Shown: positions 2,378-23,740 of the stretch, in pieces
Layout of the letters: every line of letters begins with the position of its first letter
Position numbering within the stretch: position 1 is the first letter of the stretch
DNA from: Neglectibacter sp. X58
GTDB lineage: Bacteria; Bacillota; Clostridia; Oscillospirales; Acutalibacteraceae
Assembly: GCF_009936035.1 (NCBI RefSeq)
Contig: NZ_QWEO01000029.1
Span: 1 to 36,424 of the forward strand
Length of the DNA: 36,424 nucleotides
Direction: 5' to 3'
Position numbers and translations under genes: made by a program
Notes under the pieces: generated by a model
Database searches by the model: none
What the model saw: only the letters and a program-made list of their open reading frames with translations
Told to the model about the DNA's origin: nothing

Positions 2378-4066
2378 ATGCGTATTCAACACAACATCCT
2401 GGCGATGAACGCTTATCGCAACTACAACACCAACACCTCCGCTTTGGCGAAGAACCTGGAAAAGCTGTCCTCTGGCTACAAGATTAACCGCGCTGGCGAC
2501 GACGCTGCTGGTCTGGCTATTTCTGAGAAGATGCGCGCCCAGATCACTGGCTTGAACGCTGCCCAGAAGAACGTAAAGGACGGCATTTCTCTGGTGAAGA
2601 CCGCTGAAGGCGCTATGCAGGAAATCCAGGACATGCTCAACCGCATGAAGTATCTGGCCACCCAGTCCGCTAACGGCACTTATCAGGACGAGGTTGACCG
2701 TGAGAACCTGCAGGCAGAAGTTGATAAGCTCAGCACAGAAATTGACCGTATCGCCGATTCCGCCAACTTCAACGGCATCAAGCTGTTGGACGGCTCCATG
2801 GAAGCTGGCGCAGCCGGCAAGCGCGCCACTATTGATCCGAAGGCTACTGTAAACCAGGTGGAAACCAGCACGGTTGCTTCTAGCGTGGATCCTACCTTTA
2901 GGATTTCTCTGGACGGCCTGCGCGTTGTGGCTTCCGCTTCCGGCACTGTTACCCTGAACTTTAAGATTGGAAACGCAAGCTTTACTGCACAGGCCACAAG
3001 AGTTAGGAAGGGCGAGATCCTGAAGGGAACTAACTTCAGCTTTGTTGCAGCTTCCGGTACAATTTCTGGGAAGATAACTATTGCAATATCTGCTTCTGGC
3101 GTTGTTACCTATACAGGAAGCACAGCCTCTACAGCCTTTAGCGCGGCAACAGGCGCAGCTTTGACACAGATTTTGAATTCTGACTTTACCTTTACAGTAA
3201 CTGCAAGCGGAGGCGCGCTTTCCACTGTTACAGGGGCCAACAGCGTCTATAACGGCAAGGCAGAAGCTATTACCACCGGTAAAGTGAAGAACCCCGGCCA
3301 GGTGGCCCAGGCTGAGTTTGCGCTGACTGAGGATATGCTGCAGGACGGCGCTCAGATTAAAATCGGCAAGGAAACCTATACGGTAAGTTATAAGGCTTCC
3401 ACTTCCAACAGCACTACTTTGGGCCTGAAGGACTTTGTGAAGGATGGCAAGCTTGACTTTGCCAACAATAAGAACGCCATTGCCGACGCCCTGACCAAGG
3501 CTGCCTCGAACAATGCTATGTTCAAGGTTTCTCATAATAGCGACGGCACCATCCGGGTTACCCAGACTGAATCTCACCATGCAGGGGCCGAGGCTGCTGG
3601 CGAAACCATGTACACAGCAGATGACGTGAAGAAGTGGATCAGCGTGTCCGGCGCTGCTGGCCGTTCTGGCGCCCTGCAGCTCCAGATTGGTGACACTGCA
3701 GATACCTACAACCAGATGATGGTTAACATTAAGGATATGCATGTGTCTTCTCTGGGCATCAACGGCTTGAACATCAGCGATGCACAGAACGCTGCCAAGG
3801 CTATCGACAAGGTTATGAACGCCATCAACACTGTGTCCTCTGTCCGCGGCGAACTGGGCGCAACCCAGAACCGTCTGGAGCACACCGCTAACAACCTGAG
3901 CGTCATGGCTGAGAACATTCAGGACGCTGAGTCCACCATCCGCGACACAGACGTTGCCGAAGAGATGATGGCTTACACCAAGAACAACATCCTCATCCAG
4001 TCCGCACAGGCTATGCTGGCTCAGGCCAATGCTGTGCCTCAGGGTGTGTTACAGCTCTTAGGCTAA
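2378..4066 (+). CDS. hag: Flagellin
   Basis: 562 residues. The N-terminal D0/D1 region (about 1-150) has the classic MRIQHNILAMNAYR, LEKLSSGYKINRAGDDAAGL and NFNGIKLLDGS. The C-terminal D1/D0 region (about 455-562) has VSSVRGELGATQNRL, the TIRDTDVAEEM stretch and the end VLQLLG. The middle (about 160-450) is an Ala/Ser/Thr/Gly-rich variable domain, the surface part where O-glycans are usually attached. It is the filament subunit, exported by the flagellar type III apparatus. It follows csrA and precedes a long co-oriented glycan locus, so it is probably that locus's acceptor. Translation is probably CsrA-controlled through the leader. Confidence 0.97.
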   Translation: MRIQHNILAMNAYRNYNTNTSALAKNLEKLSSGYKINRAGDDAAGLAISEKMRAQITGLNAAQKNVKDGISLVKTAEGAMQEIQDMLNRMKYLATQSANGTYQDEVDRENLQAEVDKLSTEIDRIADSANFNGIKLLDGSMEAGAAGKRATIDPKATVNQVETSTVASSVDPTFRISLDGLRVVASASGTVTLNFKIGNASFTAQATRVRKGEILKGTNFSFVAASGTISGKITIAISASGVVTYTGSTASTAFSAATGAALTQILNSDFTFTVTASGGALSTVTGANSVYNGKAEAITTGKVKNPGQVAQAEFALTEDMLQDGAQIKIGKETYTVSYKASTSNSTTLGLKDFVKDGKLDFANNKNAIADALTKAASNNAMFKVSHNSDGTIRVTQTESHHAGAEAAGETMYTADDVKKWISVSGAAGRSGALQLQIGDTADTYNQMMVNIKDMHVSSLGINGLNISDAQNAAKAIDKVMNAINTVSSVRGELGATQNRLEHTANNLSVMAENIQDAESTIRDTDVAEEMMAYTKNNILIQSAQAMLAQANAVPQGVLQLLG

Positions 4067-4294: not shown

Positions 4295-4325
4295 AGGGGG
4301 CAGGCATGTGCCTGTCCCCTTTTTG
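4295..4325 (+). terminator. Rho-independent terminator of the flagellin transcript
   Basis: AGGGGGCAGGCA (4295-4306) pairs with TGCCTGTCCCCT (4309-4320), including one G-U pair, and is followed by TTTTGT. A GTG at 4308 lies inside this hairpin and is therefore not a credible start for the next gene. Confidence 0.85.
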
Positions 4326-4352
4326 TCGGGGATCCTGAAAGGGTATCGAAGG

Positions 4353-7486: not shown

Positions 7487-8017
7487 ATGAAAACACAAAA
7501 GGGAACAGTTTACTTCTTCACAGGCTTAGCAGGAGCAGGCAAAACCACCCTTGGCGGGCTATTCTACAAGCGGCAAAAGGCCCAAAGAAATGATATTGTG
7601 CTGCTGGACGGCGATCAGCTCCGGCGGCTGTCTTTTCACAAGAAAAGTGGCTATACCACAGAAGAGCGCCTGCGGGGTTCCTATTACAATTTTGAAATGT
7701 GCCATATGCTGGCGGAGCAAGGTGTGGATGTGGTGCTTTGCAGCATTTCCATGTATCATGCGGCCCGCTCCTGGGCAAAGAACCATATAGAGAATTATAA
7801 AGAAATTTATGTTAAGGCGGCTTGGGAAACCCTCTGCCAGCGGGATCAGAAAGGGCTTTACAGCTCCGGCGTTAAGAATGTTGTAGGGGTAGACATCCTC
7901 TGCGAAGAACCGGAGCATCCGGATATAATAGTTGAAAATGACGGCAGGGAGACGCCGGATCAGATTGTGGACAGGCTGGAGGCATTTTTCGGCTTGTCTC
8001 ATGGGGAAAACAAATGA
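7487..8017 (+). CDS. Adenylylsulfate (APS) kinase-like protein
   Basis: 176 residues. The P-loop GLAGAGKTT lies at 13-21, followed by LLDGDQLRR, as in CysC APS kinases that turn APS plus ATP into PAPS. It overlaps the next gene by four bases (ATGA), so translation is coupled to a cytidylyltransferase. Two readings are possible. It may supply PAPS for the sulfotransferase-like gene at 4353, although no ATP sulfurylase is visible. Alternatively, CysC homologues beside cytidylyltransferases can phosphorylate a CDP-linked intermediate, as in the Campylobacter phosphoramidate pathway. The family is secure; the substrate is not. Confidence 0.8.
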   Translation: MKTQKGTVYFFTGLAGAGKTTLGGLFYKRQKAQRNDIVLLDGDQLRRLSFHKKSGYTTEERLRGSYYNFEMCHMLAEQGVDVVLCSISMYHAARSWAKNHIENYKEIYVKAAWETLCQRDQKGLYSSGVKNVVGVDILCEEPEHPDIIVENDGRETPDQIVDRLEAFFGLSHGENK

Positions 8018-9360
8018 CAAAGGTTATTACGTACGGAACATTTGACCTGCTCCATTATGGGCATGTCAACCTGCTAAAGCGCGCAAAGGCTTTAGGAGAT
8101 TACCTCATTGTGGGAGTTACCAGCGAAAACTACGATCGGTATCGCGGCAAGCTGAATGTGCAGCAATCCCTTGCAGAGCGTATGCAAAACGTCCTTAACA
8201 CAGGGCTGGCTGACGAGATTGTGGTAGAAGAATATGAGGGGCAGAAGATAGACGATATCACGCGGCTCCATGCGGACATTTTTGCTATTGGGTCTGACTG
8301 GGTAGGGCGGTTTGACTATTTGAAAGAATACTGCCAGGTGGTGTACCTGGAGCGAACCCGGGGCATTTCCAGCACAGAGCTGCGGGACAGGCAGCATCCC
8401 CAAATCCAATTGGGCGTGGTGGGCAGCGGGAGAATTGCGAACCGCTTTATTCCGGAGTCGAAATTTGTAAGCGGCGTTACGGTGGAAGGAGTTTACAATC
8501 CCCGCAGCGCTTCTGCGGAAGCCTTTTCCCAAAGGCACGAACTGGCTTTTTATAGTGACGATTATGACAAGTTCTTAAAGCAGGTTACGGCGGTCTACAT
8601 TGCCTCCCCCCATGAAACGCATTATGGTTATGCAAAACGCGCCCTGCAGGCGGGAAAGCATGTGCTGTGCGAAAAGCCTATGGTGTTCACGAAAAATGAG
8701 GCGGAGAAGCTTTTTGAGATTGCCCGCGAGAACAACATGATTTTAATGGAGGCTATTAAGACGGCATACTGCCCGGGCTTCCGGCGGCTGGTAAGCTGCG
8801 CGAAAAGCGGTAAGATCGGGCGCATCGTCAGTGTTGACGCGGCATTTACAAAGCTGGTTCCGCCCCATGTGCGGGAGATGCAGGACAGCGAGTCAGGGGG
8901 CAGCGTCACAGAACTGGCGACGTATCCTTTGCTGGCAATTTTGCAGCTTTTGGGATCCAACTATAAACATGCGCAGTTTTACTCCTTGTTAGATCAGAAA
9001 ACAGGGGTGGATGTGTTTACACAGATGCATCTGCAATACCCGGAGGCCCTGGCCACCGCAAAGGTGGGCTTGGGGGTAAAAAGCGAGGGGAGCTTGGTGA
9101 TTGCGGGCACCCGGGGATACATTTATGTCCCAGCCCCCTGGTGGAAAACCGAGTATTTTGAACTGCGGTTTGAAAACCTTAACGAAGCGGAAAAGAATTT
9201 TTACAAATTCTCGGAGGAAGGGCTGCGGTACGAGCTGACAGAGTTTTTAACCCGCATAACGGAAGGCCGCATGGATGAGGGCGCCTGCAAATTGTCGGTA
9301 GATATCGCGGGGATCATGGAGGAATACCGGCAGGGCCATGTGGTAAAAATCGGGCCGTAA
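8014..9360 (+). CDS. Fusion: TagD-like cytidylyltransferase + Gfo/Idh/MocA oxidoreductase
   Basis: 448 residues. Residues 1-130 are a glycerol-3-phosphate-cytidylyltransferase-type domain: TYGTFDLLHYGH with the nucleotide-binding HYGH at 14-17, and ERTRGISSTELR as the R-x-x-x-IS-(S/T)-T motif. From about 133 the second domain begins with LGVVGSGRIANRF (NAD(P)-binding) and continues with VLCEKPM and the Gfo/Idh/MocA C-terminal sheet (GGSVTELATYPLLAI). Such a fusion would oxidise or reduce a polyol or sugar phosphate and activate it as a CDP derivative. It overlaps the APS-kinase-like gene by four bases and is followed by LicD, the type of enzyme that uses CDP donors. Confidence 0.88.
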   Translation: MTKVITYGTFDLLHYGHVNLLKRAKALGDYLIVGVTSENYDRYRGKLNVQQSLAERMQNVLNTGLADEIVVEEYEGQKIDDITRLHADIFAIGSDWVGRFDYLKEYCQVVYLERTRGISSTELRDRQHPQIQLGVVGSGRIANRFIPESKFVSGVTVEGVYNPRSASAEAFSQRHELAFYSDDYDKFLKQVTAVYIASPHETHYGYAKRALQAGKHVLCEKPMVFTKNEAEKLFEIARENNMILMEAIKTAYCPGFRRLVSCAKSGKIGRIVSVDAAFTKLVPPHVREMQDSESGGSVTELATYPLLAILQLLGSNYKHAQFYSLLDQKTGVDVFTQMHLQYPEALATAKVGLGVKSEGSLVIAGTRGYIYVPAPWWKTEYFELRFENLNEAEKNFYKFSEEGLRYELTEFLTRITEGRMDEGACKLSVDIAGIMEEYRQGHVVKIGP

Positions 9361-9370
9361 TGGTAAAGGG

Positions 9371-10294
9371 GTGTTGGGCTTGCTGCCAATCAAAATAGAA
9401 CTGCCGGACGGTTTTTTAGAGGAAGAGGTTCGGTGCGGATACACAGTTAGCGCTGAGATGAAAAAACTGTGGGCAGTGGAATTAGACTTGCTTGTAGAGT
9501 TTGACCGCGTGTGCAAAAAGCATGGCCTGACATATTTTGCCGATGGCGGGACGCTACTTGGCACGATCCGGCACAAGGGATTCATTCCTTGGGATGATGA
9601 TGTTGACCTGGTTATGACCCGGTCGGAATATGAAAAGCTTGTTAAAATTGCTGATAAGGAATTTCAGCATCCTTATTTTTTTCAAACGACAGAGTCGGAT
9701 CCAGGGCTTGTTATGGGCGGCAGTCGGCTGCGGAATTCTGATACAACGCTTATCAGCGATTTTGACAATAGGCGGCCTTATGAAAATAAAGGGATTTTTA
9801 TTGACCTGTATGTTCTGGACAATGTCCCGGATGATGGCAGGAAGATCTCCGCAATCAGGAAAACCCTCAAAGTTTACTGGCGGATTTTGCGTTATGCAGC
9901 CTATTACGAGTCTTATTTTCATTCTGGCAGGAAAATGGCTTTTAAAGAGAAGCTGTTGGGCAAGTTCTCCCTGGGGTTAAAGCATCTTTGGGGCATGAAG
10001 GGGCTTTGTAGAAGATATGAAAGCTATTGTACCCAATGGAACAGTACAGATACAGATCTGATTGCCAGCTTGAAAAGCAACAGGGGCTATGTCCTTCTCC
10101 GCAAGGAGTGGTATAGCGAAACGCGCCCAGCCGCGTTTGAAGGGATAGAAATCCCCATCCCGAACGGCTATAAGGAATTCCTTACAGAAATGTATGGGGA
10201 TGACTATATGGTGATGAAACGGCAGCCCTCCACACACCGCCCTCTCAAATTTAATGCAGAGGTGCCGTATCGGGAATATAAAAAGGAAACTTGA
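9371..10294 (+). CDS. LicD-family phosphotransferase
   Basis: 307 residues from GTG 9371. A TTG at 9380 is better spaced from AAAGGGG (9365-9371) and may be the true start. LicD enzymes transfer phosphocholine or a similar phospho-group from a CDP donor to a glycan. The family core is clear: YFADGGTLLGTIRHKGFIPW immediately followed by DDDVDL (about 75-80), the metal-binding acidic cluster. No membrane segment is seen. It lies between two cytidylyltransferase fusions, so the donor is probably the CDP compound made by one of them. Confidence 0.9.
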   Translation: MLGLLPIKIELPDGFLEEEVRCGYTVSAEMKKLWAVELDLLVEFDRVCKKHGLTYFADGGTLLGTIRHKGFIPWDDDVDLVMTRSEYEKLVKIADKEFQHPYFFQTTESDPGLVMGGSRLRNSDTTLISDFDNRRPYENKGIFIDLYVLDNVPDDGRKISAIRKTLKVYWRILRYAAYYESYFHSGRKMAFKEKLLGKFSLGLKHLWGMKGLCRRYESYCTQWNSTDTDLIASLKSNRGYVLLRKEWYSETRPAAFEGIEIPIPNGYKEFLTEMYGDDYMVMKRQPSTHRPLKFNAEVPYREYKKET

Positions 10295-10306
10295 GGTGAT
10301 GCGGCT

Positions 10307-11917
10307 ATGAATATTGCCCTGGTGCTTTCAGGCGGCGTAGGGCGCCGCTTTGGGTCGGATATCCCGAAGCAATACTGCAAGTTAAGAGGGAAGCCTGTCA
10401 TTGAATATGTGCTGGATGTTTGCAGGCTGTCGAAAGTGACAGATAAAATTATCATTGTGGCCAATGGGGAGTATGTGGAAAAACTGCGCCAAAAGTATGA
10501 GGTTGAAACGGTGGAAGGCGGAAATGAGCGTAACCGCTCTATCAAAAGCGGCTTTGATTATATATCCGCCCACTATGACTGCGACAAGGTCATAATTCTG
10601 GACGCAGTCCAGCCTATTGTCACAGAGGAGCAGATCTCCCGCTATTTTGAGATCCTGGATGAATATGACCATGTGGTGACCTGCCGGAAAATCACCTCCA
10701 GTTTAGGCAGGTACGACGGCACGCAGGCTTTGCGCGATGAATTTTTCCATACAAACGCCCCGGAGGGGTTTCGGTTCAAGGTGATTGCGCCCGTGTTTGA
10801 CGGCGGCCATCCTTCAGGGGCGGCAGAGCACCAATTGCCGCCAGGGGCAACCAGCTTCCGGTGCTTTGACTATCCATACAACATGAAGCTGACATATCCT
10901 CTGGACATGGATGTGGCGGATGTCCTTCTTGACGAGTTCATCCTCAAACCAAAACAGGAACGGGTTTTAAAAAAAGCCAAATCCTGGCTAAGTTCTGTAG
11001 ACCAGGCAGCCGCTCAACAGTGGTTCGGTGCTGTGCCGGGATATTTTGACAAGCTGCGGGAGCGGTGGGGTATTTCTTCCTATACCATAAACCCCCAGAG
11101 CTTTACCGGCATTGTATATGAATGCTGTTCAGAGGCGTTTGGCAATGTAATTGTAAAGTTCGACGCACCGTTCCTGGGGCGGTACATTGGGGAACGGTAT
11201 TATTACCAGGCTGCCGGACCGGCTTTTATGGCAGAGCTGCTGGATTATGATGATGCTTTTTGCGCGCTGCTGATTCGGCAGGTCTATCCAGGCCTTCAAG
11301 TGAAATTTGACCACAGGAATGCAAAGCTTAGGGATTTTTTCAATAAGGTTGCAGACGGCTTTCTTGCAATCAATCCTGGGGATCACCCGGAACTGCCCAC
11401 CGTTATGGGCATCTTTGAGAGCAATGCAGGTTTAGCCGCAGGACATTCCTTCCAGCGGGAGTTCCGGCAAAAAATGGAAGCGGTTTGCAGGGTGCTGTGG
11501 GACAAGTATTTCCGAGATTCCCCCAAAGTATTGCTGCATAAGGATTTGCAGCGGCGGAATATCCTGGATGCAGGCGGTTCGTATCGCGCGATTGATGCCC
11601 AAGGCGTAATCGGGCCTTATGAGTTTGAGTTTACCCGCACCCATGTGACAGACGGCATGGATGAAAAGCCGGATAGCTTGGAGGGGTTTATCCAGCGTTT
11701 CCGTTTCTTTAAGCCATATGGCGAACCGGAAAGGTTAAATGCCGCCTTGTTTATTGATTGGATATGCGTTTTAAACGAATGGGTAAATGCGGCTGATGAT
11801 GGATATGAAACAGTTGCCTGGACAGTAGATGCGATTAAACGCATGTTTTATCCGAATGGGGAGTGGCAGAAGGAGGAATTGCCGATGCCTAATTTGATTG
11901 ATGACAAACGGATATAA
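10307..11917 (+). CDS. Fusion: IspD-like cytidylyltransferase + APH/choline-kinase-like domain
   Basis: 536 residues. Residues 1-225 are an IspD/TarI-type nucleotidyltransferase (LSGGVGRRFGSDIPKQY, later VETVEGGNERNRSIKSG and VIILDAVQPIV). Residues ~250-536 resemble aminoglycoside/hydroxyalcohol phosphotransferases: the catalytic LLHKDLQRRNIL near residue 410, then AIDAQGVIGPYEFEF with the metal-binding Asp. The fusion places a kinase and a CTP-dependent activating enzyme on one chain, the same logic as LicA plus LicC but from different families. It probably phosphorylates an alcohol and converts it to a CDP derivative for LicD. The natural substrate cannot be read from sequence. Confidence 0.85.
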   Translation: MNIALVLSGGVGRRFGSDIPKQYCKLRGKPVIEYVLDVCRLSKVTDKIIIVANGEYVEKLRQKYEVETVEGGNERNRSIKSGFDYISAHYDCDKVIILDAVQPIVTEEQISRYFEILDEYDHVVTCRKITSSLGRYDGTQALRDEFFHTNAPEGFRFKVIAPVFDGGHPSGAAEHQLPPGATSFRCFDYPYNMKLTYPLDMDVADVLLDEFILKPKQERVLKKAKSWLSSVDQAAAQQWFGAVPGYFDKLRERWGISSYTINPQSFTGIVYECCSEAFGNVIVKFDAPFLGRYIGERYYYQAAGPAFMAELLDYDDAFCALLIRQVYPGLQVKFDHRNAKLRDFFNKVADGFLAINPGDHPELPTVMGIFESNAGLAAGHSFQREFRQKMEAVCRVLWDKYFRDSPKVLLHKDLQRRNILDAGGSYRAIDAQGVIGPYEFEFTRTHVTDGMDEKPDSLEGFIQRFRFFKPYGEPERLNAALFIDWICVLNEWVNAADDGYETVAWTVDAIKRMFYPNGEWQKEELPMPNLIDDKRI

Positions 11918-12026
11918 AATCATATAAATTTTATATATAGTGGAGTATGTAACTTCCGATGGATAATTTCCATAGTCATGTCTGTTAAAACCATTGATAT
12001 TAAAAACAAAGGAAGAAAAATTAAAA

Positions 12027-12956
12027 ATGAGAATACAGTACCTTGAGTGTGGGTTGGCGTCTCAAATGCGCCAATATGTATTTGCACGATATGCAGAAAG
12101 AAAACATCCTGGAGAGCGTTGGTTTTTCGATGACTCAGATGCTTTTGTCCGAAACGGACATAATGGATATGAACTAGAGCGAATATTTGGAATAAAGGCG
12201 CGTATGTTAAGCGACTGCTTTAATAAACAAACATGGGAGCACATCATAGTGAGGCGGCGGAATGCTTTGTTACAGCAAAAGAAAGCCGGAATTCCTTTTC
12301 AAAATAGAACTGGCATCATTTTGCCCCAGATTCTCTTGGAAAAAGGCGTTCCAATTACTTTGGTGAGAAGTTCAAAAGCGTTAGGCAACGAATTCTGGTT
12401 TGATGGAGATATAATTTATACATCGGGTTTTGACCCTGAAATTCTTGAATTGCCATATCGCAATATATATTATTATACGTATCCAGCAAAAAGAACATGG
12501 TTTGAAGAATTTAGAGAAGAAAATCTTTTAGAATTTACTTTTCCCAGACTTTTGGATGAAACGAACCAGAGATTTGCAGATATGCTTAATACGAGTTATT
12601 CTGTGGGTATCCATGTAAGAAGAGGCGATTTTCTGCTGCCAGAAATAAACCGCGCGGTTCCTAATGAGAACTATAAAATAGCCTGCCAACAGGTAATGGA
12701 GGAACATCCCAGCGCCCACTTCTTTATCTTCTCAGACGATTTGGAATGGTGCCGTGCCAACGAAAAAGAACTGGGCTTTGACCTGTCACAGAGCACGACA
12801 TACGTTGCTGGCAACACGGGCAAAAACAGCTACATAGACATGCAACTCCTCAGCATGTGCAAAGGGATGATTCGTAATGCGCGAAGCGCCTTTTCACAGG
12901 TGGCAGGATGGCTGAATCCCAATCTGGAATTTGAAATAAAACTGAAAAAAGAGTGA
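12027..12956 (+). CDS. GT11 alpha-1,2-fucosyltransferase family glycosyltransferase
   Basis: 309 residues from ATG 12027 (AAAGGA at 12008-12013). The start MRIQYLECGLASQMRQYVFA corresponds to the G.L.NQM..Y glycosyltransferase N-terminus of this family. VGIHVRRGDFL is the H-x-R-R-x-D motif that binds the GDP-fucose diphosphate, and SAHFFIFSDDLEWC and SYIDMQLLSMCKG are further family motifs. GDP-L-fucose would come from Gmd and Fcl encoded downstream. It follows a 109-bp AT-rich gap without a clear promoter. The first two thirds are AT-rich compared with Gmd. Confidence 0.88.
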   Translation: MRIQYLECGLASQMRQYVFARYAERKHPGERWFFDDSDAFVRNGHNGYELERIFGIKARMLSDCFNKQTWEHIIVRRRNALLQQKKAGIPFQNRTGIILPQILLEKGVPITLVRSSKALGNEFWFDGDIIYTSGFDPEILELPYRNIYYYTYPAKRTWFEEFREENLLEFTFPRLLDETNQRFADMLNTSYSVGIHVRRGDFLLPEINRAVPNENYKIACQQVMEEHPSAHFFIFSDDLEWCRANEKELGFDLSQSTTYVAGNTGKNSYIDMQLLSMCKGMIRNARSAFSQVAGWLNPNLEFEIKLKKE

Positions 12957-12962
12957 GTAGTT

Positions 12963-13011
12963 ATTACATGGAGGTACCTCCATGTAATCCCTTCTAAAGG
13001 AAGGGATTACA
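12963..13011. repeat. 26-bp perfect palindrome overlapping a second hairpin
   Basis: Positions 12963-12988 form a perfect 26-bp palindrome (half ATTACATGGAGGT). Its right arm is shared with a 12-bp stem TGTAATCCCTTC/GAAGGGATTACA (12983-13011, loop TAAAG). The two structures are mutually exclusive in RNA. No T-run follows. It sits just upstream of gmd, between two glycan genes. Confidence 0.7.
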
Positions 13012-13053
13012 AATCAATGCTGCTATAAGGAAACAACACAGAGGTGCATAGCA

Positions 13054-14106
13054 ATGAAAACCGCACTGATAACTGGCATCACGGGCCAGGACGGCTCTTA
13101 CTTAGCAGAGTTTCTGCTGGAAAAAGGGTATAAAGTACACGGCGTTGTCCGGCGCTCGTCTGTAGCGAATACTGCCCGTATCAACCTCCTAATTGCAAAA
13201 AACGCCATAACCCTGCACGACGGTGATTTGACCGATTCTTCCTCCCTCATCCGCATTATCCATGAGGTACAACCTGACGAAATCTACAACCTAGCGGCCC
13301 AGAGCCATGTGCAGGTTTCTTTTGACGTACCGGAATATTCGGGCGACGTAGATGCCTTGGGCGTTCTGCGGATCCTGGAGGCGGTGCGGATTTTGGGCCT
13401 CACAAACAAAACGCGGGTTTACCAAGCTTCCACGTCAGAGCTTTACGGCAAGGTGGAGGAAGTGCCCCAAAAAGAGACAACCCCGTTTCACCCCTATAGC
13501 CCTTACGCTGTAGCGAAGCAGTATGGCTTCTGGATGGTCAAGGAATACCGGGAAGCTTACGGCATGTTCGCGGTAAACGGTATCCTTTTTAATCATGAAT
13601 CAGAGCGCCGGGGGGAGAACTTTGTCACCCGGAAAATTACCTTGGCGGCTGGTCGGATTGCCGAGGGCTTGCAGGACTGTCTGGAGCTTGGAAATTTGGA
13701 TTCCCTGCGGGACTGGGGCTATGCAAAGGATTATGTGGAATGCATGTGGCTGATGATGCAGCAGGACAAGCCGGAGGATTTTGTTATTGCAACTGGCATA
13801 CAGCATACGGTGCGGGATTTCACAGAGAAAGCCTTTGCCGCCAACGGGATTACCATCCGCTGGGAGGGCGCTGGCCTTGACGAAAAAGGCTATGACGCCG
13901 GTTCAGGGAAGCTGCTGGTGAAAGTCAACCCGGCCTGGTTCAGGCCTACAGATGTGGACAACCTGCTGGGAGATCCCACCAAAGCAAAGACTGTTTTGGG
14001 CTGGGATCCGCAAAAGACCAGCTATGAAGAGTTGGTACGGATTATGGCGGAGTACGACCGGGAGCTGGCAAAACAGGAAAAAAGGGGGCGGCTTTGTGCT
14101 GGGTAA
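13054..14106 (+). CDS. gmd: GDP-mannose 4,6-dehydratase
   Basis: 350 residues, the usual size. The Rossmann motif [20 protein letters not shown] opens the protein. [18 protein letters not shown], the catalytic STSELYGK and [11 protein letters not shown] (Tyr-x3-Lys) follow, then [17 protein letters not shown] and the substrate-binding [11 protein letters not shown]. It converts GDP-D-mannose to GDP-4-keto-6-deoxy-D-mannose, the branch point to GDP-fucose (Fcl, encoded at 18171) and, by inference, to a 3,6-dideoxy sugar through the next gene. The ribosome binding site is GAGGTG, 9 bp upstream. It overlaps the next gene by 11 bp. Confidence 0.96.
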
Positions 14107-15295
14107 AATTGGCGTGGGATACGCTTCTGTGACGGAAATTGAGAAAAAATATGTGCTGGACACCTTGGATAACCAGCGGCTTTCCCAAGGAAAATATGTG
14201 GCTGCTTTCGAGAAAAAGTTTGCCCATATGCACGGTCACAAGTACGGCATCATGTGCAACAGCGGCACAGGGGCCCTCCATCTGGCGCTGGAGACACTGC
14301 GGGAGGTAGACGGCTGGACAGATGAAACCGAAGTGCTGGTGCCTGCCATCACCTTTATTGCCACCAGTAACGCCGTGATGCATGCGGGGATGAAGCCTGT
14401 TTTTGTGGACGTTGACCCCGTTATATATAATATGAATCCCGATGAAATCGAAAAGCATATTACGCCCCGGACTAAGTGCATTATGCCAGTCCACTGTTTT
14501 GGCATGCCCTGTGATATGAAGCGCATTGTGGCGATTGCCCGAAAGCATAACTTGCGCATTGTGGAGGATTGCGCGGAAGCCCATTTTGCCAAGGTGGATG
14601 GGCAGACGGTGGGCAGCTTTTCCGACATTATGGCTTGCAGCACCTATGTGGCCCATACCATTACCACTGGCGTGGGCGGGGTCATGTGCACCAGCGATAG
14701 CGGATTGATGGAGATCATGCGGAGCCTGGTGGCCCACGGGCGGGCCTGCACCTGCGAGAGGTGCCTTGCCAGCGATGGCGATACGGTATGCCCTAAGCGT
14801 ATGCAGACAGAGATAGACCGGCGGTTTATGTTTGTGCGGCTGGGATACAGCTACCGGGTGGGAGAGATAGAAGGCGCGCTGGGGCTTGGTCAGTTGGAGC
14901 GTGTGGATGAAATCATGGGGGCGCGCCGCCGGAACGCGCAGTTTTTGATAGAAGGACTGGCGCCTTTTGAGGATAGAATCCAACTGCCGCGGCATCCGGA
15001 CAATGTGGAGCACACCTATATGATGTTTCCCATCCTGCCCCGTAAGGGGAGCGGCATTAACCGGGATGATTTTGTGCGGTATCTGGAGAAGCACAATATT
15101 GAAACCCGGCCTATGCTTTGTCTGTTGAACCAGCCTGTCTATAAGGAGATTTTTGGGGATATGGAGAAGGATTATCCTGTGGCACAGTATATAAACCAAA
15201 ATGGGTTTTATATCGGGTGCCATCACGGGCTGTCTGAAGATGAGCTGGGGTATGAGATTCAGGTGATAAAAGAATACCTGGAAACAATTCAATGA
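14096..15295 (+). CDS. DegT-fold sugar 3-dehydrase, His-for-Lys, E1/RfbH/ColD-like
   Basis: 399 residues from GTG 14096 (AAGGGGG about 9 bp upstream). The fold is that of DegT/DnrJ/EryC1 aminotransferases ([34 protein letters not shown] with PLP-binding Asp158). The position of the PLP-binding lysine holds His187 ([15 protein letters not shown]), so it cannot be an ordinary aminotransferase. His at this site defines the 3-dehydrases E1/RfbH/SpnQ and ColD. A cluster C218-x-C220-x2-C223-x8-C232 followed by PKRM resembles the [2Fe-2S] Cys cluster of E1/RfbH, which ColD lacks. The expected reaction is removal of the C3 hydroxyl from an NDP-4-keto-6-deoxyhexose; beside gmd the substrate is probably GDP-linked. 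Confidence 0.82.
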
Positions 15296-15325
15296 GCGGA
15301 CGAAAAATCGTGGGAGTTAAGGATT

Positions 15326-16252
15326 ATGCTTTCAGTGCGGGATGCTTTTTTCAATCAAATTTTTTCGCAAGTCAGCCAAGGGGAAGATATTGTTATCATC
15401 ACGTCAGACTTGGGTGCACCAAGTTTAGATGATTTCCGGAAATATTACCCAGAGAGATATATCAGTGTAGGAATTGCAGAGCAAAGCTTGATCTCCGTTG
15501 CAACGGGTTTATCTCTTTCAGGGAAAAAAGTGGTTGCCTACGGTTTGAATCCGTTTCCCATCACACGGGCATACGATCAAATCCGTTCGCTGCTGGCAGA
15601 ACTAAATGTTCCAATAACCCTTTGCGGCCTCAATGCAGGCTTGTGTTCTGCTGAGGCAGGTTATACCCATATGCCCATTGAAGATATGGGCATGATGCGA
15701 ATGCTGTCAAATGTGCGGATGTTCAACCCCTCGGATACGTGTATAGCAGAAAAACTGGCAAAGGAAGTACCAACGTGTACTTATCCCCGATATATCCGTT
15801 TTGATAAGGGCGTCACTGAAACCTTTTATAACGAGGAAAATATTAATTTGCACACAGGCTTCACTACATATGGCCAGCCGGGGAACCTGTGTGTCGTAAC
15901 CTTTGGATGTTTTATTTCTCCTATACGGAAAACAATCAGCCAACATTTTGGGATGGAAAATAAAGTTCAACTTATTGACCTGTTTGGTTTACCAGTAGAT
16001 GTAGAGCAATTAGTAAAGTGTCTGCAATCCGCAAGAAAGGTTTTGACAATTGAAGAGAATGTCCTTGCAGGCGGAATCGGTTCTTACATACTCGAATTAT
16101 TATCAGATTACGGGATGTCAAAACCTGTAAAGCGGTTAGGCCTCCAATTAAAAAATGGGTATTATAATGCTTTCACCAATAGAGAGTATATCAGAAAGAG
16201 CCAAGGTTTTACAGAATCTGACATAGAAAAAGTTATTCTGGAAATGGCCTGA
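15326..16252 (+). CDS. Transketolase-like C-terminal half (pyrimidine-binding subunit)
   Basis: 308 residues. ITSDLGAPSLDDF, YISVGIAEQSLISVATGLSL (with the Glu that activates TPP) and YTHMPIEDMGMMR are the pyrimidine-binding domain. VLTIEENVLAGGIGSYILELL is the transketolase C-terminal domain. The complementary N-terminal half is the next gene, so together they form a split, two-gene TPP enzyme in reversed order. Household transketolase is usually one ~650-residue chain. Its place after the sugar dehydrase suggests transfer of a two-carbon ketol unit onto a keto-sugar. AT-rich relative to gmd. Confidence 0.88.
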   Translation: MLSVRDAFFNQIFSQVSQGEDIVIITSDLGAPSLDDFRKYYPERYISVGIAEQSLISVATGLSLSGKKVVAYGLNPFPITRAYDQIRSLLAELNVPITLCGLNAGLCSAEAGYTHMPIEDMGMMRMLSNVRMFNPSDTCIAEKLAKEVPTCTYPRYIRFDKGVTETFYNEENINLHTGFTTYGQPGNLCVVTFGCFISPIRKTISQHFGMENKVQLIDLFGLPVDVEQLVKCLQSARKVLTIEENVLAGGIGSYILELLSDYGMSKPVKRLGLQLKNGYYNAFTNREYIRKSQGFTESDIEKVILEMA

Positions 16253-16285
16253 GATTTAAGTAATTAAGGTTAATGAGGAAACCAA

Positions 16286-17104
16286 ATGATGAAGTATGGT
16301 GTAACAAAGCTTAAGCAAAAGGCGTATCAATACCGAAAACGTTTTTTGGATATCTTTACAGAGGTGGGGTATGGGCACTTGACCTCTGCTTTTTCCTGGA
16401 CTGAAATTGCTACTGTGCTCTACCATGAAATTATGCAGTTCCCTCCCTATTGGGATGAGGCAGGGGATTTTGATAAGATGGTAATCAGCAAGGGGCATAG
16501 TGTCGGAATGCTGTTCCCCATCTTTGAAGATTTAGGGTATTTCACAGAGAAGGAATTGATGGAGACGATTCGGGTTGGAGGCTCTAATCAAAAGCTCCGC
16601 AAACTATATTATCCGGGCTTTGACTTTTATGGTGGTTCTTTGGGGATAGGATTGGGTGTCGCAGCGGGATTAGCAAAAGGCGCTAAGCTGCAAAAAGCAG
16701 CATGGAAGGTATACTGCCTTGTCGGCGATGCGGAATGCTATGAAGGTTCTATCTGGGAGGCCATGAACTTTGCAGGCCATCAACAGTTAGACAATCTGAT
16801 TGTAATAGTAGATAGGAATTTTCTAGGATGCTCAGACTTTACAGAACACATGTTGAAGCTGGAGCCTTTCAAGGAAAAATGGCTTAGCTGTAACTGGGAT
16901 GTCTGCGAAATTGATGGGCACGATGTCAGACAGGTCTATGAGGCGCTTTCAGAGGCAGGAAAACCTGGACACAGCAAGCCACAGTGCATAATTGCCCATA
17001 CAAAGAAAGGCAAAGGGTTAGAATATCTGGTAGACAGGCCACTTATGCATGGGTATATTCCGAAAGGGGAGGAGGTTAAGCGGGCGTATGAATCCCTACA
17101 GTAG
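16286..17104 (+). CDS. Transketolase-like N-terminal half (TPP diphosphate-binding subunit)
   Basis: 272 residues. GYGHLTSAFSWTEIATVLY matches the transketolase G-H-x-x-x-x-x-S region. ISKGHSVGMLFPIFEDLGYF follows, then GGSLGIGLGVAAGLA and the TPP/Mg motif GDAECYEGSIWEAM continuing to VIVDRNF (GDG-x~25-NN class). DGHDVRQVYEAL and IIAHTKKGKG complete the domain. Partner of the preceding gene. The 3' end overlaps the start of the next gene by 17 bp, indicating one operon. Confidence 0.9.
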   Translation: MMKYGVTKLKQKAYQYRKRFLDIFTEVGYGHLTSAFSWTEIATVLYHEIMQFPPYWDEAGDFDKMVISKGHSVGMLFPIFEDLGYFTEKELMETIRVGGSNQKLRKLYYPGFDFYGGSLGIGLGVAAGLAKGAKLQKAAWKVYCLVGDAECYEGSIWEAMNFAGHQQLDNLIVIVDRNFLGCSDFTEHMLKLEPFKEKWLSCNWDVCEIDGHDVRQVYEALSEAGKPGHSKPQCIIAHTKKGKGLEYLVDRPLMHGYIPKGEEVKRAYESLQ

Positions 17105-18146
17105 AAGGGCTGAAACAGTAAAAGCGGATTCTCTACTGCTTTTAAAAGAATTTCAGAACATACTGGAATCCCTTCGTGGCGCAAAAATTTTGATAACGGG
17201 TTCTACCGGTATGATAGGTTCATATCTGGGATGGCTCCTGCTATATTTATCAGATAAGCTGGACTTACATGTGTTTTTACATGGCAGGAATACAGAAAAA
17301 TTGAAGTTGTATTATCAGGATTTTTGGGAAAGCGGCAGGTGCCATATTGTAACCTTCGATTTAGCACAGAAGCATCCTAGGGGTGTATTATGCGATTATA
17401 TTATCCACACGGCCAGTTTGGCTAACAATTACGCTTTCAAAATGTACCCAACAAAAGTTATGGAACCTAATATCCTGGGGACCTGGATGCTATTGGACTA
17501 CTGCAAAGAATCTGGTGCAAAGCTTTTGCTATGCTCATCCAGTGCAATATATGGGGAAACGGAAAGAACCCAGAGTGTTTTATCAGAATCCGCTTATGGG
17601 ATTGTCGATCCGCTGTCTAGCCGTGCATGTTATACGGAAAGCAAACGCTGCGCCGAGCAGATGTGTGCGGCTTTTACAAGAGAATATGCTGTAAAGACAA
17701 ATATTGTACGGATATCTCACACATATGGCCCCACTTTTGATATAGAAAATGACGGGAGGGTTCTTCCTCGCTCCATAAAGAAAATTCTATCCAGCCAGGA
17801 TATAGAGTTGTATGATGACCCGGATGCTATAGTACAGTACACATATGTGGGGGATATCTGCTCTGCTATTTTAGATGTGATGATCCAAGGGGTTTCTGGT
17901 GAAGCATATAACGTTTGTGGGGATGAGATGCTGCCTTTGCCACAGATTATAGAGTATATGCTTGATGGGACTCCAGAAAGCTTATCCAAGCTGGTGCTGG
18001 TTCCAATAGATGAGCGCTATGCCTTCAAAAAAGGCAGTGGAGTCAATATAAAAAAGCTTGATAATGGGAAACTGAAGGCTTTAGGATGGAAGAGCTTGTT
18101 TAGCGGAAAAATAGGGTTTCGGAGAACAATACAGAGTTACATTTAG
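17088..18146 (+). CDS. NAD-dependent epimerase/dehydratase/reductase (extended SDR)
   Basis: 352 residues from ATG 17088 (GGAGGAGG about 13 bp upstream; the earlier in-frame ATG at 17049 lacks a ribosome binding site). ILITGSTGMIGSYLG is the NAD(P)-binding glycine motif. IIHTASLANN, LLCSSSAIYGE and CYTESKRCAEQ (Tyr-x3-Lys) are the SDR active site. YVGDICSAILD and YNVCGDEMLPL are typical of the UDP-glucose 4-epimerase/4-reductase family. In this setting it may reduce or epimerise the product of the dehydrase/transketolase branch. AT-rich like the transketolase pair. Confidence 0.85.
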   Translation: MNPYSRRAETVKADSLLLLKEFQNILESLRGAKILITGSTGMIGSYLGWLLLYLSDKLDLHVFLHGRNTEKLKLYYQDFWESGRCHIVTFDLAQKHPRGVLCDYIIHTASLANNYAFKMYPTKVMEPNILGTWMLLDYCKESGAKLLLCSSSAIYGETERTQSVLSESAYGIVDPLSSRACYTESKRCAEQMCAAFTREYAVKTNIVRISHTYGPTFDIENDGRVLPRSIKKILSSQDIELYDDPDAIVQYTYVGDICSAILDVMIQGVSGEAYNVCGDEMLPLPQIIEYMLDGTPESLSKLVLVPIDERYAFKKGSGVNIKKLDNGKLKALGWKSLFSGKIGFRRTIQSYI

Positions 18147-18170
18147 GGATAAAGGCAGGGAAACGATTTG

Positions 18171-19112
18171 ATGGACAAAAAATCCAGGGTATATATAGCC
18201 GGCCACACGGGTATGGTAGGCTCTGCCATTGTGCGTGCGTTAAAGCGGCAAGGATATGGAAATATCATCACTTGTACACACAAGGAGTTGGATTTGCGCT
18301 GCCAGGCTGATGTACAGCGCTTTTTTGCTACGGAAAGGCCGGAATACGTTTTTGCCGCTGCCGCACGGGTCGGAGGAATCAAGGCAAACAGCGAAGCGCC
18401 GGCAGATTTTTTCTATGACAACATGCAGATTGCAGACAACTTGATTATGGAGGCGCATCAGTATGGTGTAAAGAAATTCCTGTTTTTGGGCAGCACTTGT
18501 ATGTATCCCCGGGACTGCGCACAGCCCATGAAGGAACAGGCGCTTTTAACGGGTCTGCCAGAGTATACCAACGAGGGCTATGCCCTGGCGAAGGCCTGCG
18601 GCAGCCGCCTGTGTGCCTACATACGCAGACAGTATGGGGACGATTTTATCAGTTCTATCCCAGCTAATGCCTACGGCCCTGGAGACTCATTTGATAAAGA
18701 GCAGGCACATGTAATCCCCGCTCTGATCCGACGGTTTCACGAGGCCAAAGTGCAGGGCATACCGAATGTGGTTTGTTGGGGAGACGGAAGCCCATTGCGG
18801 GAATTCCTGTATGTTGATGATTTGGCAGATTCCTGTATTTATCTGATGAACCATTACAGTGGCGAAGCCCCTGTCAACATTGGGACAGGGAAGGAGATCA
18901 GCATTCGGGATTTGACCGAATTGACAGCAAAAGTTATAGGGTATACCGGCACAATTTCCTGGGATACTACAAGGCCTAACGGCGCACCCCGGCGGCTACT
19001 GGACATTTCCAAAACCGCCGCCCTGGGCTGGACATATAAAACCGAGTTGGAAGAGGGGATCCGCCTGACTTATGAGGATTTTCTTCACAATCCTGTGCGG
19101 GCTGAAAGGTAA
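18171..19112 (+). CDS. fcl: GDP-L-fucose synthase
   Basis: 313 residues. AGHTGMVGSAIVRALKRQGY, the Ser/Cys active site GSTCMYPRD, YALAKACGSRL (Tyr-x3-Lys) and HVIPALIRRFHEAK are all diagnostic of the 3,5-epimerase/4-reductase that turns GDP-4-keto-6-deoxymannose into GDP-L-fucose with NADPH. WGDGSPLREFLYVDDLAD and the end GWTYKTELEEG(I) also fit. It provides the donor for the GT11 enzyme at 12027. A TTG three bases upstream of the ATG is also possible. GC-richer than the preceding three genes. Confidence 0.95.
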   Translation: MDKKSRVYIAGHTGMVGSAIVRALKRQGYGNIITCTHKELDLRCQADVQRFFATERPEYVFAAAARVGGIKANSEAPADFFYDNMQIADNLIMEAHQYGVKKFLFLGSTCMYPRDCAQPMKEQALLTGLPEYTNEGYALAKACGSRLCAYIRRQYGDDFISSIPANAYGPGDSFDKEQAHVIPALIRRFHEAKVQGIPNVVCWGDGSPLREFLYVDDLADSCIYLMNHYSGEAPVNIGTGKEISIRDLTELTAKVIGYTGTISWDTTRPNGAPRRLLDISKTAALGWTYKTELEEGIRLTYEDFLHNPVRAER

Positions 19113-19117
19113 AATAT

Positions 19118-20425
19118 ATGAATGTTATTCTGTTGTCCGGCGGTTCAGGTAAGCGGCTGTGGCCCTTGTCTAACGAAGTGCGCTCCAAGCAGTTTATCAA
19201 GCTTTTTAAAACACAAGACGGCAGGCAGGAGTCCATGGTGCAGCGGGTATACAGGCAAATCCGCCAGGCTGATCCGGATGCAAAAATCATCATCGCCACA
19301 TCAAAAGCCCAAGTGTCGGCCATCCGCAATCAGTTGGAGAAAAATGTATCCATTTCTGTGGAACCCCGCCGGCGGGATACGTTTCCTGCTATTGCGCTGG
19401 CCTGCGCATACCTGTATGATGTCCAGGGCGTATCGCCAGAAGAGCCTGTGGTGGTGTGTCCGGTGGATCCCTATGTGGACGGCTCATACTTTCATTCGTT
19501 GAAAAGGCTGAGTGAACTTGCTATAACCGGAGACGCAAATCTGGTTTTGATGGGCATGCAGCCCACCTATCCCAGCGAAAAATATGGGTATATTCTGCCG
19601 GAAGGCGCTGCGGAGGTCAGCAAGGTGCTGGCTTTTAAAGAAAAGCCAGATGTTGCAACCGCGCAGGATTATATAGAAAAGGGTGGCCTGTGGAATGGCG
19701 GCGTGTTCGCCTTCAGGCTGCAATATGTCCTGGATAAGGCCCATGAATCGGTAAATTTCACAGACTATCAGGATTTGTACACAAAGTATCAGCAGCTTCC
19801 TAGGATCAGCTTTGATTATGCTGTCGTGGAACAGGAGCCGGACATCCAGGTTTTGCGGTTTGCAGGCGAGTGGAAAGATATTGGCACCTGGAATACCATT
19901 ACAGAGGCCATGGATGGACACAGCCTGGGAGAAGCAGTGTTGCACGAAAGCTGTGAAAATGTACATATCCTCAACGAATTGAATGTGCCTGTCCTGGCAT
20001 TGGGCCTGCATGATGTGATTATTTCTGCCAGTCCCCAAGGGATTTTGGTTTCCGATAAAGGGCAGTCCAGCCACATAAAGCCGCTGGTAGACAGCCTGGA
20101 ACAGCAGGTAATGTATGCGGAAAAGTCCTGGGGAAGCTACCAGGTTCTGGACGTGGAGGACAGCAGCCTGACTATCAAAGTGACGCTGAAGCCAGGGCAC
20201 AGCATGAATTACCACAGCCACCAGTTCCGGGACGAGGCGTGGGTGGTAATTGCCGGTGAAGGCCGAGTGATCCTGGACGGCAAAGAGAAGCTTGTGCAGG
20301 CTGGCGACATTGTTTCCATGAAAGCCAGGTGCCCCCATACTGTTCTAGCTTTATCCGAACTGAAAATGGTTGAGGTGCAGTTTGGAAAGGAGATCAGTGG
20401 GGAGGATAAGACTGTTTTAAATTGA
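19118..20425 (+). CDS. manC: Mannose-1-phosphate guanylyltransferase with cupin tail
   Basis: 435 residues. LLSGGSGKRLWPLSNE is the nucleotidyltransferase signature. VSVEPRRRDTFPAIA, VCPVDPYVDG, KVLAFKEKPD and GLWNGGVFAFRL are the catalytic core. The C-terminal ~110 residues are a cupin (MNYHSHQFRDEAWVV ... LVQAGDIVSM) as in bifunctional ManC/XanB proteins, but it is shorter than a full PMI domain. It makes GDP-mannose for Gmd. It starts 5 bp after fcl, so the two are co-translated. Confidence 0.93.
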   Translation: MNVILLSGGSGKRLWPLSNEVRSKQFIKLFKTQDGRQESMVQRVYRQIRQADPDAKIIIATSKAQVSAIRNQLEKNVSISVEPRRRDTFPAIALACAYLYDVQGVSPEEPVVVCPVDPYVDGSYFHSLKRLSELAITGDANLVLMGMQPTYPSEKYGYILPEGAAEVSKVLAFKEKPDVATAQDYIEKGGLWNGGVFAFRLQYVLDKAHESVNFTDYQDLYTKYQQLPRISFDYAVVEQEPDIQVLRFAGEWKDIGTWNTITEAMDGHSLGEAVLHESCENVHILNELNVPVLALGLHDVIISASPQGILVSDKGQSSHIKPLVDSLEQQVMYAEKSWGSYQVLDVEDSSLTIKVTLKPGHSMNYHSHQFRDEAWVVIAGEGRVILDGKEKLVQAGDIVSMKARCPHTVLALSELKMVEVQFGKEISGEDKTVLN

Positions 20426-21980: not shown

Positions 21981-22057
<77 letters not shown>

Positions 22058-22060
22058 CAT

Positions 22061-22097
22061 ATATAGCCCAGAACCAAGCGTTCTGGGCTATATTTTG
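22061..22097 (+). terminator. Terminator right after tRNA-fMet
   Basis: A 14-bp perfect stem ATATAGCCCAGAAC/GTTCTGGGCTATAT with loop CAAGC, followed by TTTG. It is supplied by the element and replaces the original tRNA terminator, which now lies beyond attR at 34846-34873. Confidence 0.8.
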
Positions 22098-22122
22098 TGT
22101 TTCTAGCGGCTCTGCATATGAG

Positions 22123-22144
22123 ATTTGACCCCAATTTGACCCCA
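22123..22144 (+). repeat. Tandem 11-bp repeat near attL, probable integrase arm site
   Basis: Two head-to-tail copies of ATTTGACCCCA lie 66 bp inside attL. A matching tandem pair occurs near attR (34627-34647), with 20 bases identical between the two ends, in the same orientation. Paired direct repeats near both ends are typical arm-type sites bound by the N-terminal domain of tyrosine integrases. Confidence 0.7.
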
Positions 22145-22178
22145 ACGTTGTCAACTCATTTCCAACAGGGGATATACT

Positions 22179-23600: not shown

Positions 23601-23740
23601 GATACTCAAACCTTTCCTATGTAGTAGTAAGAACCGTGCTTGCTGTCTCATAGTGATAATATGTAATTGACAGTAGCGGGTTGAGCGGTTCTTTACTTTA
23701 TAGGTTCGAATGAGTTTATCTTTTTACAATCAAAGTCCCA

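Follow-up and report, generated by a model that had tools for sequence, protein, structure and literature searches.

GDP-L-colitose is made by a pathway of Gmd, ColD, ColC and ManC, in which the 3-dehydratase ColD acts on GDP-4-keto-6-deoxymannose and has no Fe–S cluster, as described in the available text of the source (PMC8987622). The Fe–S 3-dehydratases E1/RfbH and SpnQ, which act on CDP-linked (E1) and dTDP-linked (SpnQ) sugars, have a His at the PLP-lysine position, together with a Cys loop. In the portions of the yersiniose literature available, YerE is a single ThDP-dependent flavoprotein decarboxylase that uses pyruvate to add two carbons to a CDP-linked 3,6-dideoxy-4-keto sugar, after which the ketone is reduced. 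AviB1/AviB2 of avilamycin biosynthesis is a two-subunit ThDP enzyme of the α-keto acid dehydrogenase type that forms a C4 acetyl branch (PMC4753412, available text). For the Streptomyces antibiotic sugars of miharamycin and amipurimycin, a split-gene transketolase is the proposed catalyst for attaching a hydroxyacetyl unit to a keto sugar, and the available sections of a 2025 review give such two-carbon additions to a ketone by transketolases as proposals, with no in vitro demonstration (PMC12247030); in the open-access papers searched, transketolase sugar branching appears solely as a proposal for antibiotic sugars.

Here we describe a 36,424-nucleotide stretch of Neglectibacter sp. X58 (contig NZ_QWEO01000029.1; hereafter the window), which contains the gene classes of the colitose pathway, with a His-type 3-dehydratase in a GDP context, and adds to them a four-Cys loop absent in ColD, a split transketolase and an SDR. 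Judged from sequence, the operon could well make GDP-linked 3,6-dideoxyhexoses, including a 4-C-branched one, for a surface, probably flagellar, glycan. Whereas the miharamycin and amipurimycin genes serve antibiotic sugars, those of the window form a GDP-sugar operon beside a flagellin gene, and from this position flagellin is the probable carrier of the glycan. Seven genes, gmd, the dehydrase gene, tktC, tktN, the SDR gene, fcl and manC, lie in a single tight operon (Table 1), with successive intergenic gaps of −11, 30, 33, −17, 21 and 5 bases, an arrangement that supports a joint pathway. Starting at a GTG codon (14096), the dehydrase gene shares its first 11 bases with gmd and extends to 15295; the likely start codon of the SDR gene is the ATG at 17088, and the SDR query used in searches began at 17091, one codon short of it. 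The original prediction placed the dehydrase between gmd and a two-gene transketolase, with an SDR following, which the coordinates and domain matches bear out; its five-gene neighbourhood was right as far as it was seen and overlooked fcl and manC in the same operon. Promoter and terminator scans gave signal no higher than in shuffled sequence, a phage search (12 records in all) gave no match of at least 60% identity, and a scan of genome contigs yielded one locus.

Table 1. Features of the window, with the matches on which each assignment rests
Feature	Coordinates	Strand	Basis
Flagellin	2378..4066	+	Pfam Flagellin_N 146 bits, Flagellin_C 92.7 bits
GT11-family glycosyltransferase	11994..12956	+	Pfam Glyco_transf_11 58.8 bits, cut-off 23.9
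gmd, GDP-mannose 4,6-dehydratase	13054..14106	+	NCBIfam TIGR01472 527.1 bits, cut-off 415
Predicted His-type four-Cys nucleotide-sugar 3-dehydrase	14096..15295	+	Residues; His-type clade; GDP-perosamine synthase relative
tktC, pyrimidine-binding and C-terminal half of split transketolase	15326..16252	+	PF02779 73.3 bits, PF02780 32.4 bits
tktN, ThDP-binding half of split transketolase	16286..17104	+	Pfam PF00456 96.4 bits
SDR, proposed branch-ketone reductase	17088..18146	+	Pfam Epimerase 134.1 bits; YxxxK present in alignment
fcl, GDP-fucose/GDP-colitose synthase-like epimerase-reductase	18168..19112	+	NCBIfam NF047922 428.6 bits, below the GDP-fucose synthase equivalog cut-off of 500
manC-like GDP-mannose pyrophosphorylase	19118..20425	+	TIGR01479 209.6 bits, below cut-off 372.95; Pfam NTP_transferase and MannoseP_isomer

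Alignments place a His at residue 187 of the dehydrase, as in E1 (3bcx), at the position of the catalytic Lys of GDP-perosamine synthase (3bn1), confirming the earlier claim that this DegT-fold protein has exchanged its PLP lysine. The four Cys residues that had been named (C218, C220, C223 and C232) are all present, along with others including Cys159; the four align to the position of the RfbH Cys, with a C-x-C-x2-C-x8-C spacing unlike that of the RfbH loop. Four aligned window-type homologues, among them L050 at 36% identity, all carry His187 and the four loop Cys, in favour of our reading, as does the L094 dehydrase; the loop has a pLDDT below 50 in the structure model, which counts against that reading. 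The His-type proteins form one clade (SH-aLRT 98), and the window type branches apart from RfbH/E1, differing from E1 and SpnQ in its Cys spacing although the loop occupies the same alignment place. The NCBIfam RfbH equivalog is not reached (NF011936, 258.6 bits; cut-off 423). The best solved relative by both sequence and fold is GDP-perosamine synthase, a GDP-4-keto-sugar enzyme, in favour of our reading, and the neighbours are gmd and manC, with RfbH-type CDP-glucose genes not beside it. The Cys loop sets the protein apart from ColD, and His187 from GDP-perosamine synthase. Its assignment as an aminotransferase is ruled out by His187; the Lys-type proteins L068, L077, L078 and L079, all four of that type in our phylum sample, fall outside the His group in the tree. 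The His for Lys exchange and the Cys loop support the predicted role of a C3-deoxygenating dehydrase. The accompanying suggestion, that GDP-mannose 4,6-dehydratase is an unusual partner for such a 3-dehydratase, is an overstatement if the GDP pairing is taken alone, given the GDP substrate of ColD in the available text (PMC8987622); the unusual feature is the GDP context combined with a four-Cys loop, because ColD lacks an Fe–S cluster. The operon encodes no plant-type ferredoxin reductase, which counts against a redox role, and the genome's one Fer2 match sits on another contig.

The best Pfam and NCBIfam families of TktC and TktN are transketolases, in contrast to the acetolactate-synthase-like flavoprotein YerE, and the nearest PDB chains are 6yaj, a split transketolase, for TktC and 6yak for TktN. 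Like AviB1/AviB2, the pair is a two-subunit ThDP enzyme, but of the transketolase type. The ThDP and metal residues are retained (the activating Glu of GIAEQ, GDxE...N and the catalytic His residues); the GDG motif reads GDA in the window and L003 transketolases. The equivalents of His103 (yeast) and of His416, Asp424 and Arg474 (human), which we take to be substrate-site residues, the three human ones binding sugar phosphate, are all replaced (His416 by Asn, Asp424 by Ala and Arg474 by Lys), with an Arg near the TktC start retained; this favours an altered substrate, and the housekeeping pair L049 retains all four. Loss of His416 and Asp424 is not diagnostic, because pairs outside nucleotide-sugar sets share it, for example L052 beside an FGGY kinase. 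The window pair was rejected as the genome's pentose transketolase, since a second split pair with the usual substrate residues is encoded at G000:C95; with the residue losses, this makes a role confined to pentose metabolism, which the original prediction had named among its refuting cases, unlikely. In the transketolase tree, the window and L003 pairs lie on a long branch apart from the RfbH-linked pairs, which counts against our reading, and the candidate grouping of these transketolases as one clade was not seen.

The gene set, for which a wider search had been suggested, recurs elsewhere. In L003 and L094 the colitose-like genes stand with the two halves of the transketolase and an additional SDR resembling a reductase, though arranged differently from the window, in support of a shared pathway. 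L036 has gmd-dehydrase-fcl-manC and a GT11-like gene without a transketolase, so the dehydrase and the transketolase need not share a pathway, and two modules are separable: the colitose-like set, and the transketolase halves with the SDR. GT11-like proteins are also found in L003 and L094. Every window-type dehydrase seen adjoins GDP genes, in favour of a GDP substrate: gmd and manC in the window, L003, L036 and L094, and a GDP-transferase-like gene in L050, where an E1-alpha/beta pair also adjoins the dehydrase. In an order-level sample of 394 genomes (the same for both counts, as judged from equal size and shared rows), the dehydrase occurs in three (E ≤ 1e-90) and the window-type tktN in two of these three (E ≤ 1e-65), a co-occurrence that supports linkage with the window left out (Fisher p = 0.005). 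The SDR role is looser, because the window SDR and its L003 counterpart share only 32% identity and a non-homologous protein takes its place in L094, both counting against our reading. This L094 protein is an Fcl copy without the Cys/His pair; if these residues have the roles we assume, only reduction is left to it, as our reading would have it. Parallel CDP-sugar sets, with rfbG, rfbH, both transketolase halves and an SDR, are found in L072 and L084, again in its favour.

The proposed pathway would begin with ManC and Gmd, which by family assignment very probably supply GDP-mannose and GDP-4-keto-6-deoxymannose. Deoxygenation at C3 by the His187 protein would probably follow, by way of a PMP adduct and with a putative Cys-loop cluster as electron relay, to give GDP-4-keto-3,6-dideoxymannose. 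It is reasonably likely that Fcl turns this into GDP-L-colitose, passed on by GT11; the window protein retains one Cys and one His, presumably the epimerase acid/base pair. TktN and TktC would share one ThDP active site and, we are inclined to think, move a two-carbon ketol, possibly acetyl, onto the C4 ketone. Reduction of the new branch ketone by the SDR, to a GDP-linked 4-C-branched 3,6-dideoxyhexose, is an evenly balanced proposition. Two-carbon transfer onto the 4-keto sugar followed by SDR reduction is our best reading, with even prospects, and its donor, acceptor and product are what we infer; the logic is that described for YerE in the available text, with a split transketolase and a GDP context in place of the flavoprotein and CDP sugar.

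Several other readings bear on this one. The operon may simply make GDP-L-colitose through gmd, the dehydrase gene, fcl and manC, with the transketolase and SDR mere neighbours serving another part of the glycan or central metabolism; L036 and the ColD/ColC precedent fit this, but we regard it as improbable, as three genomes have a transketolase pair together with an extra SDR within or next to the set, in differing orders, and the window genome encodes a further split transketolase whose substrate residues are the usual ones. Quite unlikely, too, is that the transketolase acts ahead of C3 deoxygenation, or in its place, with GDP-4-keto-6-deoxymannose as acceptor, to give a branched 6-deoxyhexose, the dehydrase feeding a colitose branch only. 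The Paenibacillus locus L092, where rfbF, rfbG, a methyltransferase gene, an SDR::tktN fusion and tktC occur with no RfbH among 14 listed features, would agree with such an acceptor, but the transketolase halves adjoin RfbH in L072, L084 and L086, and the window-type transketolase group has two other members, each next to the dehydrase; the L092 fusion beside rfbFG also counts for our best reading, as a further parallel CDP set.

Pyruvate could instead be the donor, as it is for YerE and AviB1/AviB2; the acetyl unit so transferred would give a yersiniose-like hydroxyethyl rather than a dihydroxyethyl branch. The window, L003 and L094 pairs have all lost the His103-loop residue, which we assume reads the C1 hydroxyl of the donor, and pyruvate is the substrate of both AviB1/AviB2 and YerE in the available text; we nevertheless give this reading little weight, the closest families being transketolases and not α-keto acid dehydrogenases. 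Doubtful, though a little less so, is a dehydrase that works as ColD does, with a glutamate and hydrolysis, the Cys loop being a structural metal site. The GDP substrate class, the operon without a reductase, the loop spacing and the missing Cys159 of L050 all suit it, whereas the loop lies at the RfbH Cys position and the ColD-like L082 has no Cys there.

If two-carbon transfer and SDR reduction hold, they would bring new branched-sugar chemistry to the surface glycans of bacteria, along with a dehydrase of GDP type distinct from both ColD and E1. Tentatively, split transketolases may be an unrecognized nucleotide-sugar branching class, acting with an SDR in GDP or CDP 3,6-dideoxyhexose pathways across phyla; the window-type dehydrase may in turn represent C3-deoxygenases of a third kind, combining GDP substrates with a four-Cys redox loop. 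The window, L003 and L094 and the CDP-type L072, L084 and L092 are compact enzyme sets whose first genes likely make the acceptor, so the branching question is directly testable. The dehydrase profile had matches (E ≤ 1e-70) in 14 of the 398 genomes that make up the phylum sample, and the 13 fetched besides the window comprised nine His-type and four Lys-type proteins; nine of 34 plasmid records with RfbH were opened (L080 and L084–L091). Among the opened loci, 15 of 18 RfbH-type loci have no transketolase, which counts against a general association; several of the opened stretches stop at contig ends. Transketolase halves occur at the other three (one of nine in the phylum sample, L072; two of nine in the plasmid records, L084 and L086) and at none of the four Lys-type loci, which counts for it. 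The L084 adjacency had been noticed from positions before the locus was opened. A binomial value of 4e-5 for transketolase beside RfbH serves as a guide only, as it assumes random placement and two copies per genome of the window genome's size. Decay is possible in L086, where the tktN half is short and a second pair nearby looks broken.

The operon gmd, dehydrase, tktC, tktN, SDR, fcl and manC, in which tktN and tktC encode the ThDP-binding half and the pyrimidine-binding plus C-terminal half of a split transketolase, lies on one of the 185 contigs of a 3.36-Mb genome, with intergenic gaps of −11, 30, 33, −17, 21 and 5 bases from gmd to manC. Flagellin is followed by a 679-residue protein that matches no Pfam family at E ≤ 1e-5 and no NCBIfam family at E ≤ 1e-20. 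Next come glycan-type genes (FkbM methyltransferase, APS-kinase-like, cytidylyltransferase/GFO fusion, LicD, IspD-like fusion and GT11 transferase), and the operon lies 3′ of these. Judging from position, the glycan-type genes and the operon may decorate flagellin. The setting has precedent, because a 2026 paper (PMC13317340), in whose main text the word 'transketolase' is absent, predicts 3,6-dideoxyhexoses for the flagellar glycan islands that certain Clostridium species carry. The region borders on mobile elements, with MobA/MobL at 104–910 and, at 21981–23651, tRNA-Met and then a minus-strand integrase of phage type.

Features of the window and of two related loci
Locus	Position	Feature
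Window	2378-4066	Flagellin
Window	4308-6347	679-residue protein directly 3′ of flagellin
Window	8014-9360	Cytidylyltransferase joined to GFO/IDH/MocA oxidoreductase (fused gene)
Window	10307-11917	IspD-like nucleotidyltransferase with C-terminal extension (fused gene)
L094	1664-2602	Second Fcl-like protein, Cys and His lost, beside transketolase halves
L092	6924-8831	SDR joined to ThDP half (tktN), one 635-residue Paenibacillus plasmid protein

As originally noted, the dehydrase has His187 in place of the PLP lysine and a cysteine cluster, which comprises four residues in one loop (C-x-C-x2-C-x8-C). An alignment revealed that all five residues are invariant among the window protein and its relatives at loci L003, L036 and L050, and they are also present in the L094 dehydrase. 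In RfbH-type proteins the corresponding loop reads C-x-C-x7-C and is slightly longer in one of them, and a His-type protein adjoining gmd on an archaeal plasmid (L082) lacks the Cys loop. In a 28-row tree (quick method, SH-aLRT values, without bootstrap), all 21 His-type rows group together (98), as do the four clostridial window-type rows (100) and the 15 RfbH rows (100), which L082 adjoins (99); L050 has no firm place. The nearest solved protein in sequence and fold is GDP-perosamine synthase, followed by E1, with ColD lower. The structural model (mean pLDDT 83.6) is uninformative on the Cys loop, since residues 218–238 and 240–251 fall below 50. According to PMC8987622, ColD uses GDP-4-keto-6-deoxymannose and has no Fe–S cluster, whereas E1 and SpnQ contain a [2Fe-2S] cluster; relative to the enzymes that this review names, a Cys loop in a GDP context is thus a new pairing.

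Across 394 genomes of the host's order, the dehydrase occurs in three (window, G612 and G1054) and window-type tktN in two (window and G1054); with the window excluded, the association has a Fisher p = 0.005 (393 genomes), on very small numbers. G612 carries gmd (86% identity), dehydrase (76%), fcl (62%) and manC (62%) together, and no transketolase gene was found in this 19.9-kb locus (L036). The 9.2-kb G1054 contig (L094) has the order GT11, gmd (67%), dehydrase (74%), fcl (56%), tktN (42%), tktC (32%), a second fcl-like gene (45%) and manC (45%). L003, a mouse-gut-type metagenome contig from an uncultured Eubacteriales bacterium (G082 in the family search), encodes gmd (84%), dehydrase (83%), fcl (62%), manC (67%), one gene read by eye as mannose-6-phosphate isomerase, tktC (62%), tktN (69%), SDR (32%) and a GT11-like protein (27%). 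The same parts in differing gene orders suggest a shared task. The five gene classes from gmd to the SDR are all present in L003, L094 has an Fcl-like copy in place of the SDR, and L036 is without the transketolase.

TGxxGxxG and YxxxK are both kept in the window SDR, from which the dehydratase letters are missing. The Fcl-like copy that replaces it in L094 has Tyr and Thr at the Cys and His positions of Fcl, which we take to be the epimerase pair; both residues are kept in fcl of the window, L003, L036 and L050 and in the first copy of L094.

The transketolase halves of the window, L003 and L094 retain the GIAEQ glutamate, the GDxE...N metal motif (GDA in the window and L003) and three tktN histidines. 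All three have lost the GHP loop histidine (yeast His103), with human His416 replaced by Asn or Gly, Asp424 by Ala or Ser/Tyr-region letters, and Arg474 by Lys; the usual letters are present in the other split pair of the host, the housekeeping one (L049). The RfbH-linked pairs L072, L084 and L092 lack His416 and Asp424 and keep the loop histidine, as do pairs without a known sugar-nucleotide link, such as L052 beside an FGGY kinase, so these two losses alone prove little. A tree that left out L094 places the window and L003 pairs on a long branch, separate from both the housekeeping and the RfbH-linked pairs. The lost phosphate-site letters argue for a donor other than the usual ketose phosphate, such as hydroxypyruvate or pyruvate.

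Parallel sets with CDP-sugar genes exist elsewhere. Transketolase halves also occur at 3 of 18 opened RfbH-type loci, versus 0 of 4 Lys-type loci. L072, from the same phylum, has in a row SDR, tktN, tktC, CDP-glucose 4,6-dehydratase (TIGR02622, 507 bits against a cut-off of 278) and an RfbH-type dehydrase. Plasmid pHY1 of Methylovirgula sp. HY1 (L084) has rfbF, rfbG, an NAD(P)-dependent oxidoreductase, rfbH and both halves, and Paenibacillus cellulosilyticus (L092) has rfbF, rfbG, a methyltransferase, the SDR::tktN protein and tktC. No other observation points as strongly to consecutive action of the SDR and a transketolase half as this fusion, whose SDR portion shares 38% identity with the L084 oxidoreductase. 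In Desulfobaculum (L086), rfbH is accompanied by short tktN and tktC halves; its plasmid carries two short-looking, perhaps decayed, transketolase pairs near rfbH (10253–16400).

The operon is real, coherent and recurrent, and it departs in a new way from known pathways for dideoxysugars and sugar branching; for its central reaction we hypothesize C2 transfer by the split transketolase. Gene order, residues and recurrence are observed directly; we infer a route, and its product, in which the dehydrase would remove the sugar's C3 oxygen, TktN/TktC would transfer a C2 unit onto a keto sugar and the SDR would then carry out a reduction. The acceptor may be a 3-deoxy or a 3-hydroxy 4-keto sugar; as context for the latter, RfbH is absent from the listed features of L092. 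According to PMC12247030, miharamycin and amipurimycin branching by split-gene transketolases is a proposal, with none characterised in vitro; PMC4753412 describes acetyl branching by YerE and AviB1/AviB2 and a reductase that takes the following step. No report of a GDP version of transketolase branching was found in the open-access literature searched.

On Solidesulfovibrio plasmid pDMC1 (L050, 7906–14890), a window-type dehydrase (37%) and an Fcl-like gene lie with an E1-alpha/E1-beta pair and with genes resembling those of a heptose kinase and a GDP-transferase; the product is possibly a branched GDP-heptose made by another type of ThDP enzyme. The Haladaptatus plasmid (L082, 7992–11122) carries gmd, a reductase and its loopless His-type dehydrase; together these resemble a colitose-type set, here in an archaeon.
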